NCBI RefSeq assembly: GCF_013036045.1 | Contig: NZ_WTPX01000016.1 | Span: forward strand, 1-54,666 | DNA length: 54,666 bases | Reading direction: 5' to 3' | DNA from: Alienimonas chondri | GTDB lineage: Bacteria > Planctomycetota > Planctomycetia > Planctomycetales > Planctomycetaceae | In this document: positions 10,364-44,059 of the stretch, piece by piece | Layout of the letters: every line of letters starts with the position of its first letter | Numbering within the stretch: the first letter of the stretch is position 1 | Position numbers and translations under genes: made by a program | Notes under the pieces: generated by a model | The model's database searches: none | What the model saw: the letters and a program-made list of their open reading frames with translations, nothing else | Told to the model about the DNA's origin: nothing

Positions 10364-11560
10364 TTACCGCCGTCTGAGGACGAACCGGGGGGCGATCCAG
10401 AACGCTTCGTCCCGCACGCCCCCCAGCGTGCCGGGCGAGACTGTTAGAGCGACCGACTCGGCGCCGTCGAATTCGATGCGTACCGGATGGAACGCCCCCG
10501 ATCGCACGCCGTTTCGTTCCCAGCGCGTTGCCCCGTCGACCGTGATGCTCGCATCGCAGTCGGCGAGTTCGCCGGCCGCGGCGTCGACCGCGAAGGCCGT
10601 TACGACCGCCGTCGCCTCAGGCGGGACGGCGAACGTCAGCGTCGTTCCCGCCGCGACGCCCCAGCCGAGCGTCCGCGGTCGCCCGTCGGCGACGGGGCGA
10701 CGGCCGACGACGCTCCGGTCCCGCCGCGGCTCCGCTCGTCCGTGCGGTACGGCGGCGATCTCTACCGTTGGCTCGCTTGCCTCGGCAACGCCGGGCGTGA
10801 CGGCCGTCAATTCTCGAATCGCATCGGGGCCGAGAGGAACGGTCAGCCCCTCCGCGGTCAGCGCCTGCCCCCCGGCCGGTCCGTACGTCAGGGAGGTCGC
10901 GGTCAGATGCGAACCGTCCGCCAGCAATGCCTGAAAGAATCGATTCGGCCGCGGGGCCGGCCGCTGCAACTCCGGCGAGAGGGCGACGGCCCGCACCGTC
11001 GATCGCGGGAGTTTGATCTCCCCCGCGGCGGCGAGGAGCCGCACCGCGTCGGCGTCGAATTCGAGCAATTCCCCGCCGACCCGCCCGCCGACCTGTAACA
11101 GCGCCAGATCGTCCGCTCCGCGGTCACGGAGCGCCGCCAACCGTTGCACGTTCGTCAGCGGCCCCGTGCCGGCGAAGCGCATGAACCGCACCCGGTCGGC
11201 GGGCAGGCTCAGCGAGTCGCCCCGCGGTCGGGAGAAGGCGATCGTTTCTCCGTCGAAGCCGGCGACGGTCCCGAACAGGCGGTCGCCGCCGGTCAGTTCG
11301 ACCCAACCCCGATCGCCGTCCGGCGCGATCGGGCCGGGAACGAACACGTCCAACACCTCGTCCCATGACCACGACTGATCATCCAGCCGGATGGTCTGAT
11401 CGCTCACCTCGATCCGACTGCCGGTGACCGATCCGCCGCCTGAAAGCGTGACTTCGATGCAGTTCTCGGCCGATTCGCCCCGGGCGAAGTCACCCGCGAA
11501 ACCGCAAGCGAGAGTCGCGGACTGAAGGAACGTCCGCCGGGTGGGAAGGGAACCGCTCAT
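10364..11560 (-). CDS. Tat-exported protein with C-terminal NPCBM-like domain
   Basis: This 398-residue protein begins at ATG 11558-11560, overlapping the upstream gene's stop as ATGA. The N-terminus TRRTFLQSA fits the twin-arginine export consensus, with a hydrophobic segment after it. The middle contains short beta-rich repeats of the type 'LTGGDRLFGTVAGFDGETI', which look like a small beta-barrel. The last 110 residues end with 'DEAFWIAPRFV', resembling the NPCBM carbohydrate-binding module. Export and sugar binding are inferred. The codons for the signal peptide include an 18-bp sequence that is also found as an intergenic repeat at 23061. The partner gene upstream encodes a squalene-repeat protein. 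Confidence 0.72.
   Translation of the reverse strand: MSGSLPTRRTFLQSATLACGFAGDFARGESAENCIEVTLSGGGSVTGSRIEVSDQTIRLDDQSWSWDEVLDVFVPGPIAPDGDRGWVELTGGDRLFGTVAGFDGETIAFSRPRGDSLSLPADRVRFMRFAGTGPLTNVQRLAALRDRGADDLALLQVGGRVGGELLEFDADAVRLLAAAGEIKLPRSTVRAVALSPELQRPAPRPNRFFQALLADGSHLTATSLTYGPAGGQALTAEGLTVPLGPDAIRELTAVTPGVAEASEPTVEIAAVPHGRAEPRRDRSVVGRRPVADGRPRTLGWGVAAGTTLTFAVPPEATAVVTAFAVDAAAGELADCDASITVDGATRWERNGVRSGAFHPVRIEFDGAESVALTVSPGTLGGVRDEAFWIAPRFVLRRR
11493..11510. repeat. 18-bp REP-like sequence inside a signal-peptide coding region (family 2)
   Basis: CCCGCGAAACCGCAAGCG here is the exact reverse complement of bases 23061-23078, and its last 15 bases are near-identical to both arms of a palindrome at 47698-47769. 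It encodes part of the Tat signal hydrophobic segment of the surrounding gene. Confidence 0.45.
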
Positions 11561-17431: not shown

Positions 17432-18361
17432 ATGGCCGCTCCTCCGACTGCACCGACCGCGCGCCGTCCTGCTTGGCGGAGCGCCGCGACGCTGCTTCTG
17501 GGGGCCTTCCTCGGCGCCGCCGGAGCCCTGATCGGTCTCTGGGCCGAGCGTATACCTGCGAACCCGCATGACGCTCCGGCGTTTGTCGGCAAGCCGTTGA
17601 GGGCGCCGGGCGACTCGGCCGATTCGGACGACAGTTTCCGCTGCGTCACCTGGAATGTTCACGGCTTCCGCGGAGCCGACGGCGATCCGAACCCCGCGCT
17701 CGCCGTCCAATGGTTGTTAGCGTCTCAATTCGACGTCGCTCTGCTTCAGGAAGTTCCCGGACCCGACGCGGTCTCGTCCGAGGGACCGGCTTCCGCCACG
17801 CTTGGTCGGTTCACCGGCGCCTCCGCCGCATTCGTCGGCACGGAGCGTCAGTACGGGAGAGAGCATGTCGGCAACGCGGTCCTTTCGACGCTCGCCGCGG
17901 GGCCGGTTCACCGGATTCCCCTCCCGGACACCCGCGGCAAGGCGTTCCGCACCGCGGTTCTCACAACCGTGTTCGTGCCGACCGCAGTGAACCCGGAGGG
18001 TCAAGCGGTGCGGCTGCTGAACGTCCACCTGACCCGTGAGGGCTGGGAACCGGGGCAACTCGAACGGGCGCTCGACCTCTTCCTCGCTTTGGAGGCGCCC
18101 TGCGTGTTGGCGGGGGATTTCAACGCGGAGATCGACGCCCCACCGTTGCAGGCGTTGCTGGCCTCTGACGAAGTGAAGGACGCGCTCGCCGCCCTCGATC
18201 CCCGCGAGGTGCGCGACGCGCTGCCGGTGGGCAAGGAGAAGGTCGACCACATCTTCACCCGCGGCCTGATCGTCCGTGAGGCCGCGGTCCTGAGAACCGA
18301 GGCCAGCGATCATCCGCTCTACTGGGTCGATCTAAGCCTGCCGGCGCCGTCGGCGGATTGA
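17432..18361 (+). CDS. membrane-anchored endonuclease/exonuclease/phosphatase-family protein
   Basis: The 309-residue protein begins with a basic segment and one hydrophobic helix (about 17-40), suggesting an N-terminal anchor or signal. The catalytic domain shows the ordered family motifs: VTWNVHG with the metal-ligand Asn, LLQEV with the catalytic Glu, LAGDFNAE with Asp/Asn, VDHIF, and the terminal ASDHPLYW with the catalytic His. These enzymes are Mg-dependent phosphodiesterases or phosphatases acting on nucleic acids, phospholipids or other phosphates; the substrate cannot be predicted. It starts at ATG 17432. A REP-like repeat pair lies between its 3' end and the next convergent gene. 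Confidence 0.88.
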   Translation: MAAPPTAPTARRPAWRSAATLLLGAFLGAAGALIGLWAERIPANPHDAPAFVGKPLRAPGDSADSDDSFRCVTWNVHGFRGADGDPNPALAVQWLLASQFDVALLQEVPGPDAVSSEGPASATLGRFTGASAAFVGTERQYGREHVGNAVLSTLAAGPVHRIPLPDTRGKAFRTAVLTTVFVPTAVNPEGQAVRLLNVHLTREGWEPGQLERALDLFLALEAPCVLAGDFNAEIDAPPLQALLASDEVKDALAALDPREVRDALPVGKEKVDHIFTRGLIVREAAVLRTEASDHPLYWVDLSLPAPSAD

Positions 18362-18386: not shown

Positions 18387-18496
18387 ATACCAGCCCGATG
18401 CGCGAGCATCGGCCGTCGGAGCAGCCGGCGGAATCCTCGGGGGTTGAAGGCTTGCTTCAGACGACACGCGGCCGACGCTTGCGCGTCGGGCTGGTA
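18387..18496. repeat. REP-like paired palindrome, family 1, copy A
   Basis: The left arm (18387-18415, beginning ATACCAGCCCGATGCGCG) and the right arm (18469-18496, ending GCGTCGGGCTGGTA) are near-perfect inverse repeats around a 53-bp middle that includes GCAGCCGGCGGAATC. Each arm is itself a small hairpin (CGATGC-GCGA-GCATCG and CGACGC-TTGC-GCGTCG). A second copy lies at 42830-42935. It sits in the convergent gap between two gene 3' ends. Confidence 0.85.
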
Positions 18497-18509
18497 CTGC
18501 AATTGTTCC

Positions 18510-19304
18510 CTACGCCGCTCGGCGGGCGTTGAAGGCGTACAGCTTGCCGAGGTGCTTCAGGTAGGCCAGTTGCTGGCCGAGCGTCAGCTTGCTGGAGCCG
18601 CGGGTGCGGTCGCGGAAGGTGATCGGCACTTCGGCGACGCGGCGGGCGCCGCACTTCACCAGCAGTTCCAACCCGATCTTATAACCCACCGGATCGAGCG
18701 GCCCGCAGGCGGCGAACGTCTCCCGGCGGAGGGCGAAGAACCCGGCGAGCGGGTCCGCGGCGTTCGTCAGTCCGCGGGCGAGATGCGTGGCGACCTTCGA
18801 GTTCCATTGCCGGAACCGTCCCCAGCCGGCGTCGATCTGACCGCCGGGGACGTATCGGCTGCCGATCGCGAAGTCCGCTCCGCCGCGGCCGTCGGTTCCG
18901 AGTACCGCGGCGATCAGGTCCGGGATCGCCTCGGGCGGGTGGGAGAGATCCGCGTCCATCACCGCGAGCACGGCGCCGCGGCTTTCAGACAGCCCCCGCA
19001 CCGCCGCGGTGGCGAGTCCGCGTTCGTTGCGGCGGAGGATCAATCGCAGGGGGTGATCCTTCGCCAATTCCGCGCAGAGTTCCTCCGTGCCGTCGCGGCT
19101 GTCGTCATCGACGATCAGAAATTCCGCGGAGAGGTGGGCGCCGCTCACGGCGTCGCCGAGCCGGGCGATCAATTCCGGGAGGTTCTCCGCTTCCCGGTAG
19201 GTCGGCACGACAACGGTCACGTCCGGCTGCGTGTCGTTCGCTTCGACCGTCGCGCTGTCCTCATCGGGGGGGACGTACAGATGCGGGGCGGGGGGAGTTG
19301 ACAC
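18510..19304 (-). CDS. polyprenol-phosphate mannose/glycosyl transferase (DPM1-like GT2)
   Basis: This 264-residue family 2 glycosyltransferase resembles dolichol/polyprenol-phosphate mannose synthases, which load a sugar onto a lipid carrier. Motifs include VVVPTYREAENLPELI at about residue 30, VDDDSRDGT, the metal-binding VMDADLSHPP, and the acceptor-region FRDRTRGSSKLT near the C-terminus. It has no C-terminal membrane helices. I chose GTG 19304, because the frame further up overlaps the preceding small membrane-protein gene; TTG 19367 is another option. It ends a long minus-strand gene run. Confidence 0.88.
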   Translation of the reverse strand: MSTPPAPHLYVPPDEDSATVEANDTQPDVTVVVPTYREAENLPELIARLGDAVSGAHLSAEFLIVDDDSRDGTEELCAELAKDHPLRLILRRNERGLATAAVRGLSESRGAVLAVMDADLSHPPEAIPDLIAAVLGTDGRGGADFAIGSRYVPGGQIDAGWGRFRQWNSKVATHLARGLTNAADPLAGFFALRRETFAACGPLDPVGYKIGLELLVKCGARRVAEVPITFRDRTRGSSKLTLGQQLAYLKHLGKLYAFNARRAA

Positions 19305-19380
19305 GGGCGGCGGCCAAGCAGGGCGAGAGGCCCGGCGGGCATAGGCGATCCCGGCGAGAGCGGTCAACGCGGACCGATCC

Positions 19381-19692
19381 TCAGTGAACGAACATGCAGA
19401 GGCCGCCGACGAATCCTGCAACATAGCCTCCAGCCAGCGAGGCTCGATAATCCGACCAAGATCCGGCTCTGCGGTCACGGATCCAGCGACCGACCTGCCC
19501 GCCCATCAGACCGAGAAACGCTCCGCCGAACCCGCCGACCAATACGCATGCCATCAGCGCTTCCCACCAACTGTCCGGGACCTCGTCGGGGAAGAACAGG
19601 AACGCCGTGATCAGCGCGGGGGCGAACCCAAGCACCCCGCCCAGCACGGCCCCTGCGCGGCTGGCCTGAAGATTGTGCGGTCGCTGCTTCAT
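19381..19692 (-). CDS. small glycine-rich membrane protein
   Basis: This 103-residue product starts at ATG 19692, overlapping the truB stop as ATGA. Three hydrophobic segments (about 14-36, 45-68, 84-102) carry repeated glycines (VGGFGGAFLGLMGGQVG), like small multi-pass proteins. No family recognised. Its stop is 77 bp before the chosen start of the glycosyltransferase gene. Co-translation with truB is clear; a functional link is not. Confidence 0.7.
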   Translation of the reverse strand: MKQRPHNLQASRAGAVLGGVLGFAPALITAFLFFPDEVPDSWWEALMACVLVGGFGGAFLGLMGGQVGRWIRDRRAGSWSDYRASLAGGYVAGFVGGLCMFVH

Positions 19693-23031: not shown

Positions 23032-23078
23032 CCCGCGATCGCTCGCGGGCTGGAGACGCACGCTTGCGGTTTCGCGGG
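23032..23078. repeat. hairpin and REP-like family 2 sequence between kdsB and pyrG
   Basis: CCCGCGA-TCGC-TCGCGGG (23032-23049) is a perfect 7-bp hairpin. Directly after it, CGCTTGCGGTTTCGCGGG (23061-23078) is the exact inverse of 11493-11510 and is near-identical to the arms of the palindrome at 47698-47769. Confidence 0.55.
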
Positions 23079-39754: not shown

Positions 39755-41455
39755 GTGAAGTCCGTCCTGACGACCGCCGGTCCCGCCTCCGCCGCCGACG
39801 CCGGTTCCCTGAAGGTGCCGCGGGAGGATCGTGCGATGCTGGCCGTGCCGGCGCTGGACGACTTGCCGACGCTGGCCGAAGCAAATGCCGCCGCCTCCGG
39901 GCCCTCGTCCGCGTCGGCCGGCCTGGACGTGCAGGGGCGGCCGTTCGGCGCCCTCCGGGATTGGGCGCGGAAGGAAACGCTGGGGGCGGCGGCGACCTAC
40001 ACCCGCTCCCTGGGCGTGACGGTCGAAGAGGTCGACCCGTCCGCCCCGCTGATCGCCGGCGGTCACCAGCCGGAGCTGTTCCACCCCGGCGTTTGGGCGA
40101 AGAACTTCGCGCTCGGTCGCGTCGCCCGCGCGGTGGGCGGGACGGCGTTGAACCTCGTCATCGATTCCGACCTGCTGCCCGGCACCCGGGTCCGCGTCCC
40201 GGCCGGGACGCGACGGAATCCGCGAATCGAGTCGATCCCGTTCGACAGCGATCGCAGTTCCCGTCCCTGGAGCGGCGCCCTCGTCCGCGACCCGATCCTG
40301 TTCGATTCGTTCGGCCTGCGGCTCGGCGAATCCTTGGGGCGGTTCGGTCTCCGGCCGCTTGCCGCGGATCATTGGGGGAAAGCCTGCTGCGGCGACGAAC
40401 TCGCTCCCCGGCTGACGGCCTTCCGTCGCCGCATGGAAGGGGCGTGGGGCCTGTCGAACCTCGAAGTCCCGATCGGGCAGGTCTGCGAGACGGATTCGTT
40501 CCTCTGGTTCGCCGGCCACCTGATCGCCCACGCGGCCCGGCTGCGGGAGGACCACAACGCCGCCCTCGACGACTACCGCGAACGAGTCGGATTGAAGGCG
40601 GAGAACCGCCCGGTCCCGCCGCTCTCCCGCGTCGCCTCGAAAACGGCCGGCGATGCGATCGAGTTGCCTTTCTGGATGTGGGAGGACTCGAACCCGACCC
40701 GCCGTCGGGTGTTCGTGCGGTCGGTCGGCAGAAACCGGGTCGCCCTGTCGGACGGCCCGCCGGGGGAGGGGGAGGACTTCGCCGAATTCCCCCTGTCGGA
40801 GAGGATGGACGCCTGCTGTGCCGTCGAAGCCTTGAAGCAGTTGCCGGCTCGCGGTGTGCGACTGCGGACGCGGGCGCTGGCGACGACGTTGTTCGCCCGG
40901 CTCTGCTTGGGCGACCTGTTCCTGCACGGCATCGGCGGCGCGACCTACGACGCGGTCACCGACGGAATCGTGCGGCGGTTCTTCGGCCTCGAACCGCCCG
41001 GTTACGGGGCGGTCTCCGCGACCGTGCATCTCCCATTTGCGGAGTCGTTCGGAGCGAACCCGGACGACGTCGGTCGGCTGGAACGGCGGCTGCGCGATCT
41101 GCGGTTCAATCCGGATCGGAGCCTCCCCGACCCGCCGCCCGCCGCCGCGGCGCCGCTGGTCGACCGGAAGCAGGCGTTGATCGCGGAGCAGCGCGACGCG
41201 AACACCCACGGCCTGAGCCGCGCCGAACGCCGCGCCCGCACCCCCGCGAACGAGGCCCGGCGGGACGCTCTGCACGCGACGAACGCCGCCCTCGGGGCGT
41301 TCGTCTCGGATCGCGTCATCGCCGCTCGCGAAGAACTGGCCGATCTCCAGGCGAAACTGACCGCCGACAAGCTGCTGACCAGCCGCGAGTTCAGCTTCGC
41401 CGTGTTCCCCGAGGACGTGCTGCGGCCGTTCCTCACCGGGATTCTGGACGGGTGA
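39755..41455 (+). CDS. BshC-like protein, possible thiol ligase homologue
   Basis: This 566-residue protein shows weak resemblance to BshC (putative cysteine-adding enzyme of bacillithiol synthesis): 'AGGHQPELFHPGVWAKNFALGR' parallels the BshC GQQPGLF-type loop, and a C-terminal helical region ('EELADLQAKLTADKLL') follows, as in that family. Other parts, such as LFLHGIGGATYDAVTDGIVRRFFG, look planctomycete-specific. The start was placed at GTG 39755, after an unlikely 16-residue lead. Its stop overlaps the GTG of a 2-hydroxyacid dehydrogenase. Function remains inferred: no bshA or bshB is in this window. Confidence 0.55.
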   Translation: MKSVLTTAGPASAADAGSLKVPREDRAMLAVPALDDLPTLAEANAAASGPSSASAGLDVQGRPFGALRDWARKETLGAAATYTRSLGVTVEEVDPSAPLIAGGHQPELFHPGVWAKNFALGRVARAVGGTALNLVIDSDLLPGTRVRVPAGTRRNPRIESIPFDSDRSSRPWSGALVRDPILFDSFGLRLGESLGRFGLRPLAADHWGKACCGDELAPRLTAFRRRMEGAWGLSNLEVPIGQVCETDSFLWFAGHLIAHAARLREDHNAALDDYRERVGLKAENRPVPPLSRVASKTAGDAIELPFWMWEDSNPTRRRVFVRSVGRNRVALSDGPPGEGEDFAEFPLSERMDACCAVEALKQLPARGVRLRTRALATTLFARLCLGDLFLHGIGGATYDAVTDGIVRRFFGLEPPGYGAVSATVHLPFAESFGANPDDVGRLERRLRDLRFNPDRSLPDPPPAAAAPLVDRKQALIAEQRDANTHGLSRAERRARTPANEARRDALHATNAALGAFVSDRVIAAREELADLQAKLTADKLLTSREFSFAVFPEDVLRPFLTGILDG

Positions 41456-42447
41456 GCGCCGACCGCCGCGTGCTCATTACCGACGTTCCGTGGGACGACC
41501 TGTCCCTCGAACGGGCTGAATTGGCGAAGGTCGGGGCGACGCTGACGCGGGCCTCGGCGAACGACGAGGCGACGCTCGTCCGGGAAGTTGCGGGGGCGAG
41601 CGGGCTACTGACCTGTTGGGCGACCGTTTCCGCCGCCGTGCTGGAAGCGGGCGGGGCGGAGGACACGGCGCTGCAAATCGTCGCCCGGTTGGGGACGGGC
41701 GTCGACAACATCGATCTCGCCGCGGCGGAGCGGCTCGGCGTCCCGGTGACACGGCTGCCGGACTACTGCGTGGGGGAATTGGCGGACCACACGCTCGCCC
41801 TGCTCCTGTCGATCCGTCGAGACGTCGTCGGCAGCGTGAACGCCATCCGAACCGGCGAGTGGAACCCCGATCGGGCCGCGGGCCTGCGGCGTCTGGAGGG
41901 GAACGTGCTCGGGCTGATCGGCTTCGGCCGGACCGCCGCCGCCGTGCGTGAGCGGGCGTTGGGGTTTGGGCTGACCGTCCTCGGCGAGAATCGCTCCGAC
42001 GACAACCGCGGGACCGGCTGCGAGATGGTCTCGCGGGAGGAACTGCTGGAGCGGAGCGACGTCGTTTCGCTACACGTCCCGTTGGCGGACCACACCGCGA
42101 GGATGGTCGACGCCGACTTTCTCGCACGCATGAAGCCCGGGGCGGTATTGTTGAACGTCGCCCGCGGCGGGCTGATCGACCCGGATGCGGTACTCGCCGC
42201 ATTGGAGAGCGGCCGGCTGTCCGCGGTCGGGCTGGACGTCTTCGAGCCGGAGCCGCCCGGGGCGTGCCTCGCCGACTGGCACCCGCTGGCGATGCATCCG
42301 CGGGCGTTCGTCACGCCGCACACGGGGTTCCTCAGTCGAGAAAGCCTGATGGAACTTCGCACCCGGGCCGCGCGGCAGGTCGCGGACGCGCTGGCCGGTC
42401 GGCGGCCGGAGCATCTCGTCGATCCGGCCGTGTGGGACCGTCGCTGA
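41452..42447 (+). CDS. D-isomer-specific 2-hydroxyacid dehydrogenase
   Basis: This 331-residue NAD-dependent dehydrogenase belongs to the phosphoglycerate/C-terminal-binding-type family. It shows 'ARLGTGVDNIDLAAAERLGVPV', the nucleotide motif GNVLGLIGFGRTAAAV (GxGxxx near 150), the catalytic Arg/Glu segment 'LLNVARGGLIDPDAV' and 'DVFEPEPP', and catalytic His in 'TPHTGF'. It starts at GTG 41452, overlapping the preceding stop (GTGA). The substrate (for example glyoxylate, phosphoglycerate or formate) cannot be read from sequence. Coupling with the BshC-like gene may indicate a shared pathway. Confidence 0.9.
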   Translation: MSADRRVLITDVPWDDLSLERAELAKVGATLTRASANDEATLVREVAGASGLLTCWATVSAAVLEAGGAEDTALQIVARLGTGVDNIDLAAAERLGVPVTRLPDYCVGELADHTLALLLSIRRDVVGSVNAIRTGEWNPDRAAGLRRLEGNVLGLIGFGRTAAAVRERALGFGLTVLGENRSDDNRGTGCEMVSREELLERSDVVSLHVPLADHTARMVDADFLARMKPGAVLLNVARGGLIDPDAVLAALESGRLSAVGLDVFEPEPPGACLADWHPLAMHPRAFVTPHTGFLSRESLMELRTRAARQVADALAGRRPEHLVDPAVWDRR

Positions 42448-42648: not shown

Positions 42649-42961
42649 GGGGGAGCGAATCGAAGGGGAGGTGCGGATCGTCCGAACCGTGCGTCACGCG
42701 ACCCGTCGCCGCGGCGATTCCCGGCCGCGTCGCGTCCAAGGAACCGTTGCCGGATCGCCTCCCGCCCGCACAAACGGACGGGCGGCCTCGCCGATCCCTC
42801 CCGCTCGCCCCCGCTCAAAAACTGTTTCCATACCAGCCCGACGCGCGAGCGTCGGCCGTCGGCGCAGCCGGCGGAATCGCCCCGCACAGGGGATCGAAAC
42901 CACGCACGGCCGACGCTTGCGCGTCGGGCTGGTATCAGTGAGACGGGTCTGAAACAGCGTC
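42649..42961. other. intergenic region upstream of the small membrane peptide and downstream of proB
   Basis: This 313-bp region contains the REP-like element copy B (42830-42935). Its flanks include an AAAAACTGTTTCC stretch before the element and a GAGACGGGTCTGAAACAGCGTCTC palindrome after it (about 42940-42963). The open frames through it carry no domain features. No RNA gene seen. Confidence 0.45.
42830..42935. repeat. REP-like paired palindrome, family 1, copy B
   Basis: Left arm (42830-42858, starting ATACCAGCCCGACGCGCGAG) and right arm (42907-42935, ending CGCGTCGGGCTGGTAT) are inverse repeats. The middle shares GCAGCCGGCGGAATC with copy A at 18387. In the left arm the hairpin is CGACGC-GCGA-GCGTCG, versus CGATGC-GCGA-GCATCG in copy A: a compensatory base-pair change. 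Confidence 0.85.
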
Positions 42962-44059
42962 TCACCCGGCGGCGGGGCGGGTGAGGGTGAGGTTGTCCCG
43001 GTGGACGACGGTGTCGTCCGGCACGCCGCCGAGGAGTTCGGCGATCTGATCGGTGCGACGGCCGGCGACGCGGCGGAGTTCGTTGGAGGAATAGTTCGAC
43101 AGCCCCCGCGCGAACTCCCGTCCGCCGACGGTCAGGATCCGCACCGGACCGCCCCGGGGGAATTCGCCGGCGACGTCGGTTACGCCGATCGGCAACAGGC
43201 TGCGACCGCGTTCGGTCAGGGCGCGGACGGCGCCGGCGTCGACGGTGATTTCGCCGGCGGGCAGCAGCGTGAAACCGATCCAGCGCTTCCAGGCCGTCGG
43301 GGCGCCCGGCTCGCCGCGGATCAGCGTGCCGACCGGCTGCCCGTCGGCGATCCGGTCCAGCACGTCGTCCTCCCGCCCGTCGGCGAGGATCGTGTCCACC
43401 CCCGCGGCGGCGGCATCTCGGACGGCTTCCAGCTTCGAGGCCATCCCCCCGGTGCCCAGCCGCGTGCCGGTCGAGCGGGCGAGGCGGAACAGGCCGTCGT
43501 CCCAGCGTTCGATCAGGGAGATGACGTTCCCGTCTTTCTCCGGATCGCCGTCGCACAGGCCCGGGGCGCTGGTCAGCAGGATCAACAGCGGCTCCGGCAC
43601 GAGGCCGGCGGTCATCACGGCCAGACGATCGTTGTCGCCGAGAGAAATCTCCGCGGTGGAGACCGTGTCGTTCTCGTTGACGATCGGCACCGCGGCGAAC
43701 TCCCGCAGCGTCGCCAGCGTGTTGCGGGCGTTGAGGTAGCGGGTGCGATCGCGGAAGTCGTCGGCGCCCAGCAAGATCTGGGCGGCCCGCAAGCCGTGGG
43801 TTCGCAGCGATTCGTCGTACCAGCGGATCAGCCGCGCCTGACCGGCGGCGGCGGCCGCCTGGAGGTGGGCCAGGTCGGTCGGCCGGCGATCCAGCCCCAA
43901 TAAATCGAGTCCCGCCCCGACCGCGCCGCTGCTGACCAGCACGACGGCGCGATCGTTCGTCCGGGCGCGGGCGATCTGGCGGGACAGCGACACGATCCGT
44001 TCCCGGTTCGGCCGACCGTCCGGCCCGCTGAGAACGTTCGTGCCGACTTTCACCACCAA
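42962..44059 (-). CDS. proB: glutamate 5-kinase ProB (with C-terminal PUA domain)
   Basis: ProB makes gamma-glutamyl phosphate, the first step of proline synthesis. The 365-residue product starts at TTG 44059 with VVKVGTNVL, the ATP-binding N-terminus, and shows SSGAVGAG, NENDTVS and TGGMASKLEAV. Residues about 265-355 form the PUA domain often fused to ProB (SLLPIGVTDV). The start is TTG or the following GTG; no ATG is available in frame. proA is not adjacent. Confidence 0.94.
   Translation of the reverse strand: MVVKVGTNVLSGPDGRPNRERIVSLSRQIARARTNDRAVVLVSSGAVGAGLDLLGLDRRPTDLAHLQAAAAAGQARLIRWYDESLRTHGLRAAQILLGADDFRDRTRYLNARNTLATLREFAAVPIVNENDTVSTAEISLGDNDRLAVMTAGLVPEPLLILLTSAPGLCDGDPEKDGNVISLIERWDDGLFRLARSTGTRLGTGGMASKLEAVRDAAAAGVDTILADGREDDVLDRIADGQPVGTLIRGEPGAPTAWKRWIGFTLLPAGEITVDAGAVRALTERGRSLLPIGVTDVAGEFPRGGPVRILTVGGREFARGLSNYSSNELRRVAGRRTDQIAELLGGVPDDTVVHRDNLTLTRPAAG

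Follow-up and report, generated by a model that had tools for sequence, protein, structure and literature searches.

The REPINs of Pseudomonas fluorescens SBW25 are dispersed inverted REP doublets with a spacer and paired stem changes, linked to a gene for an HUH tyrosine transposase which is flanked by the same repeats (PMC3116915). The GTAG-tagged REPs form head-to-head (HH) dimers with the tags outside, and are characterised by short stems and loops, common heterodimers and REP-flanked transposase genes (Di Nocera et al. 2013, PMC3733652). Members of IS200/IS605, such as IS608 and ISDra2, have one imperfect hairpin per end, located after a short tag. Class 2 TnpAREP enzymes have the tyrosine motif Y---NP, and class 3 TnpA-Y1 was described from 24 proteins, mostly from planctomycetes, with a call for further experiments; the class 3 genes have atypical flanking hairpins, which are sometimes high-copy and have a 5' CnGA foot (Quentin et al. 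2018, PMC6006769).

The window analysed here, a stretch of 54,666 nucleotides from Alienimonas chondri, contains two elements of a repeat family (family 1) that shares all of the features listed above for the SBW25 REPINs and for the GTAG-tagged dimers. It differs from the SBW25 REPINs in its sequence and tag, in its copy number (about 36–100), in its planctomycete host, in being associated with a class-3-type rather than a class-2 enzyme, and in that complete dimers border the gene on both sides. Compared to GTAG, the family-1 tag (CCAG) has the G replaced at the first position and the T at the second. The enzyme fold and the hairpin ends after a short tag are common to IS200/IS605 and the system described here, but the sequence identity in structural comparisons is ~10–19%, the gene copy number is low, and each end is an inverted dimer adjacent to the gene. 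In the literature within our reach, which excluded most subscription papers, we found no description of such dimers in planctomycetes beyond PMC3733652 and PMC6006769. Our preferred reading (probability roughly 0.8) is that family 1 consists of REPIN-like non-autonomous elements, most likely mobilised as single-stranded DNA by an HUH enzyme, for which the best candidate is encoded elsewhere in the genome, on contig C49.

The two window elements are located at 18.4 and 42.8 kb (Table 1). The family core, ATACCAGCCCGAYGCGCGAG, was matched at 18387+, 18478-, 42830+ and 42916- (≤3 mismatches, with 0.00 matches expected from shuffled sequence) and is present at both ends of both copies, in agreement with the original prediction of two inverted-hairpin elements with terminal inverted repeats. 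The extent proposed for them (18387–18496, 106–110 bp) was approximately right, the exact spans being 111 and 106 bp. A shared sequence, GCAGCCGGCGGAATC, is indeed common to both copies, but it does not lie centrally, as had been thought: it forms the inner side of the left arm and closes a second hairpin, a stretch that is kept in part of the family-1 copies. The two elements are 94% identical over their first 49 bases, and the paired stem change noticed at the outset (CGATGC/GCATCG versus CGACGC/GCGTCG) is present in the sequence. The 18.4 kb copy is a heterodimer, in which the stem pairs differ between the two end hairpins.

Table 1. Features of the two family-1 elements, their neighbouring genes and the candidate transposase locus (window coordinates unless a contig is named).
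Feature	Position	Strand	Basis or remark
Family-1 REP dimer (REPIN-like), 111 bp, heterodimer	18387..18497	+	Sequence, core matches, covariance-model alignment
Left end hairpin CCGATGC-GCGA-GCATCGG	18395..18412	+	Tag ACCAG before it
Inner hairpin-forming stretch CCGTCGGAGCAGCCGGCGG	18413..18431	+	Left arm of 18.4 kb copy
Right end hairpin CCGACGC-TTGC-GCGTCGG	18472..18489	-	Followed by CTGGTA
Endonuclease/exonuclease/phosphatase family gene	17432..18361	+	Left neighbour of 18.4 kb copy; ends 25 bp before element
Family 2 glycosyltransferase gene	18510..19478	-	Right neighbour of 18.4 kb copy; stop codon 12 bp past element
Family-1 REP dimer (REPIN-like), 106 bp	42830..42935	+	
Left end hairpin CCGACGC-GCGA-GCGTCGG	42838..42855	+	42.8 kb copy
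Inner hairpin CCGTCGGC-GCA-GCCGGCGG	42856..42874	+	42.8 kb copy
Right end hairpin CCGACGC-TTGC-GCGTCGG	42910..42927	-	42.8 kb copy
ORF with C-terminal 2-hydroxyacid dehydrogenase domains	39961..42447	+	Left neighbour of 42.8 kb copy; start codon uncertain
Amino acid kinase + PUA gene (glutamate 5-kinase-like)	42962..44059	-	Right neighbour of 42.8 kb copy
HUH/tyrosine transposase gene, 155 aa	Contig C49		Complete family-1 dimer upstream and downstream
Glucose-6-phosphate dehydrogenase-like and gluconate permease-like genes	Contig C49		Neighbours of transposase gene; names by reading of translations

Similarity around the 42.8 kb copy extends beyond the dimer on both sides (window 42780–42958 versus C321:23050–23230 of the same genome, 88% over ~180 bp), and short flanks of the 18.4 kb copy are common to copies on C190, C314 and C223; this sharing could reflect a preferred target or a larger repeat. 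Elsewhere in the window, inverted arms beginning CCCGCGAAACCGCAAGCG are found at 11493–11516 and 23055–23078, and resemble a repeat around another Y1 gene of the same genome (C116, locus L014; read in translation). A 43-bp inverted repeat (98%) occupies positions 1–116 at the very end of the contig, and is possibly an assembly edge.

The original prediction considered family 1 to be dispersed, and envisaged that a finding of just two copies genome-wide, or of copies confined to a conserved syntenic position, would speak against this. The core is matched 47 times in the A. chondri genome (G000; 24 forward and 23 reverse, ≤2 mismatches) and its reversed control pattern not at all. A covariance model built from 33 aligned dimers of ~81–133 bp each places the family at no fewer than 36 distinct sites among 65 candidates scored per genome. 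The same search recovered a comparable family in a congener (G001), and few or weak matches in other relatives, the 33 weak ones in G013 included. Separately, ~32 distinct family-1 dimers were counted in 1.6 Mb of the congener. One dimer (L030:1500–1598, on contig C80) is situated in frame inside an ORF, to which it would add ~33 residues, and the ORF is uninterrupted in the congener; another (L006:1416–1520) parts two genes whose congener versions overlap at ATGA (stop/start).

Each family-1 end is a 7-bp hairpin after ACCAGC with a loop that is mostly GCAA, GCGA or GCCA. In most copies the outward-facing tag 5' of this GC-rich hairpin is CCAG, and not the GTAG (GTGG) which defines the GTAG REP superfamily. 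Across the 33 copies, 99.4% of end-hairpin cells are paired and there are 29 double-sided changes; the most variable stem pair takes all four Watson-Crick forms (C-G, T-A, A-T and G-C), with zero mismatches at either end. The alternative of pairing across the arms breaks at the most variable stem columns in 9/33 and 14/33 copies, and many dimers resemble the 18.4 kb copy in having unlike stem pairs in their two hairpins. Because the ends pair individually while cross-arm pairing breaks, we conclude that they are kept as two separate hairpins, an arrangement which fits the 'clover' form of Bertels and Rainey (PMC3116915) better than their long-hairpin form. The independent covariation is also relevant to how REPIN ends are recognised, where it favours a pair of small hairpins over a single long one.

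Paired changes of this kind fit the proposal, made from the two window copies, that the hairpin itself is under selection, but template-switch correction of imperfect palindromes could yield the same pattern, as could the spread of a few founder types, which transposition could copy. The variation is indeed concentrated almost wholly in a single stem pair, where the same few types recur. However, four pair types are found at the same position, at both ends and freely combined within dimers, implying several changes, every one of which was kept paired, and we regard an origin without hairpin selection as a doubtful, though still serious, contender. It affects no other inference and can stand alongside the REPIN-like interpretation of the family as a whole.

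For 17 of the A. chondri copies the orthologous site could be read in the congener. Eleven of these sites are without a family-1 element (the 42.8 kb site, L005, L006, L030, L034, L036, L046, L047, L059, L155 and L156) and four contain another palindrome (the 18.4 kb site, L004, L058 and L153). A family-1 element is present at the remaining two, being shared at L055 and, at L038, truncated and in the opposite orientation within the same intergenic stretch. The copies are thus not tied to a conserved syntenic position. These differences fit movement of the dimer as a unit, with mobility read here from genome comparison, although element absence in the congener can partly represent loss instead of non-insertion. 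No consistent shared target motif or target duplication was found in the flanks of the 33 copies or in the empty sites, and the intergenic DNA is too diverged to define exact insertion junctions or a target site.

These comparisons also bear on whether the dimers might simply be host-selected extragenic palindromes, serving as terminators or mRNA-stabilising hairpins between convergent genes. Both window copies do lie between convergent gene pairs and have strong predicted RNA folding, and such secondary use of REPs is known from the literature (PMC3733652). Against this stand the element's absence from most orthologous congener sites, the lack of a T-run after the hairpins, the locations of one copy in frame within an ORF and another where two congener genes overlap, and the presence of the same dimer on either side of a transposase gene. 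We therefore view immobile host palindromes as very improbable, while a secondary effect of the dimers on transcripts is possible.

In a separate observation, a 989-bp DDE-type IS is present in the congener as four identical copies (L139:1230–2218, L323, L325 and L327), three of which interrupt a REP hairpin precisely at its GCAA/TTGC loop, with duplication of the 4 bp of the loop; one of these three lies in the palindrome found at the congener site orthologous to the 18.4 kb element. REPs are already known as IS targets (PMC1525189).

Seven Pfam Y1_Tnp matches were found in the A. chondri genome and none falls in the window, as the original prediction had said. It had also suggested looking elsewhere in the genome for a Y1 gene flanked by the same palindrome, and the gene on contig C49 has just this arrangement, with a dimer on each side. 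The encoded protein scores above the Pfam Y1_Tnp cut-off and has the HUH motif NHVH and the tyrosine motif YVRNRQ. Identity as a canonical (class 2) RAYT was considered and rejected, since the protein reaches only 19.6 bits against the NCBIfam RAYT model (cut-off 80) and has YVRNRQ in place of Y---NP. Judged by its sequence, it instead bears the published class-3 TnpA-Y1 signature (NHVH with Y----Q, in a protein of ~155 aa; PMC6006769). The CCGA found in nearly all family-1 copies fits the class-3 CnGA foot by its letters, yet is positioned inside the stem. The proposed REP/RAYT-type reading therefore holds insofar as a Y1/HUH gene lies within the same dimers; with a tag of CCAG instead of GTAG and an enzyme that is not a canonical RAYT, however, the system is not to be filed under GTAG REPs or class-2 RAYTs.

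A PDB sequence search with the enzyme or its 8-sequence profile returned no Y1 relative. The predicted structure of a relative, L258, which was modelled instead of the C49 protein itself (pLDDT 93.6, 34 sequences), has IS200/IS605-type or TnpAREP chains as its 30 best PDB matches, and its predicted fold is like those of IS608, ISDra2 and the E. coli TnpAREP-REP complex. Family-1 elements are probably moved by a class-3 HUH transposase, and a mechanism can be proposed on the model of IS608/ISDra2 and E. coli TnpAREP. The mobile unit would comprise two inverted REP hairpins with outward 5' CCAG tags and a variable linker, about 80–130 bp in all, and would be mobilised in single-stranded form, for instance on the lagging-strand template. 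An HUH/single-tyrosine transposase, for which the 155-aa class-3-type TnpA-Y1 protein encoded between family-1 dimers on C49 is the best candidate, would bind each folded end hairpin and cut beside the tag.

A different class-3 enzyme might move the dimers in place of the C49 protein, for example one of the C102 type, whose REPs in the congener are GTGAG-tagged. The C102 enzyme and its congener counterpart are 56% and 53% identical to the C49 enzyme, the REPs flanking their genes have the hairpin body and inner arm (GGCCGTGCG) in common with family 1, and the congener retains family 1 without a C49-type gene. In the congener, however, the two sets of tags and stems are largely apart (GTGAG with GGAGC stems, CCAG mostly with GAC/GAT stems), and in A. 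chondri no gene other than that on C49 was found between CCAG dimers. Movement by a different class-3 enzyme is accordingly unlikely, if less so than the host-palindrome account. The TA conserved at both family-1 ends (TA-CCAG...CTGG-TA) led us to consider, and set aside, a MITE of a DDE transposase with a TA target duplication. The TA is not conserved in the class-3 sister families (with ends GTGAG..., ACTAA..., ACAAG...), the A. chondri core pairs surround no DDE gene but only the HUH gene, and covarying hairpins within each terminal repeat are unexpected for a simple MITE, which leaves this the least plausible of the alternatives. The C49 enzyme remains our favoured candidate.

Of 59 related genomes, 25 have a homologue of the C49 enzyme. 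A search of genome contigs gave 298 relatives, compared to the 24 proteins originally described; the best 80 are nearly all planctomycete. Y----Q is present in 76 of the 80 named relatives, and NHVH is the commonest HUH form. Inverted repeats around the gene exceed those of 30 shuffles at 85/93 relative loci. A REP-type motif (consensus approximately ACTAGCCCGAAGCGCAAGCGAGGG) occurs within 400 bp of the gene in 52/75 named loci, and on both sides in 46/75, versus 10/75 for a control zone 700–1500 bp away; a dimer on each side is the commonest arrangement among loci with the motif (14 loci). Distances between REPs correlate with distances between enzymes (Mantel r 0.415, with 0/2000 permutations as high), which can be co-inheritance as well as co-evolution.

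Despite its many family-1 dimers, no close C49-type gene was found in the congener (best identity 53%), so that these dimers may be relics or may be served by another enzyme. At the congener interval corresponding to the C49 locus the entire composite is absent, and the presence there of only a damaged half-REP-like stretch suggests that the composite was lost. The congener therefore offers a test case for repeats outliving their own transposase.

Family 1 probably works like a REPIN and is tied to a little-studied transposase class, to whose description we add the dimer organisation, the tag, the covariation and the presence/absence differences between congeners. Tentatively, and at clearly less than even odds, class-3 HUH enzymes and non-GTAG REPINs may constitute a planctomycete-centred system apart from the class-2 RAYTs, and perhaps a step between IS200 elements and domesticated RAYTs; the whole dimer-gene-dimer composite would come and go from one species to the next, its dimer population persisting. 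The class-3 HUH enzymes occur widely among planctomycetes, most of their genes having cognate hairpins nearby, together with a genome-wide dimer population. They provide enzymes matched to their substrates for in vitro work, among them sister pairs with a common hairpin body but a CCAG or a GTGAG tag.
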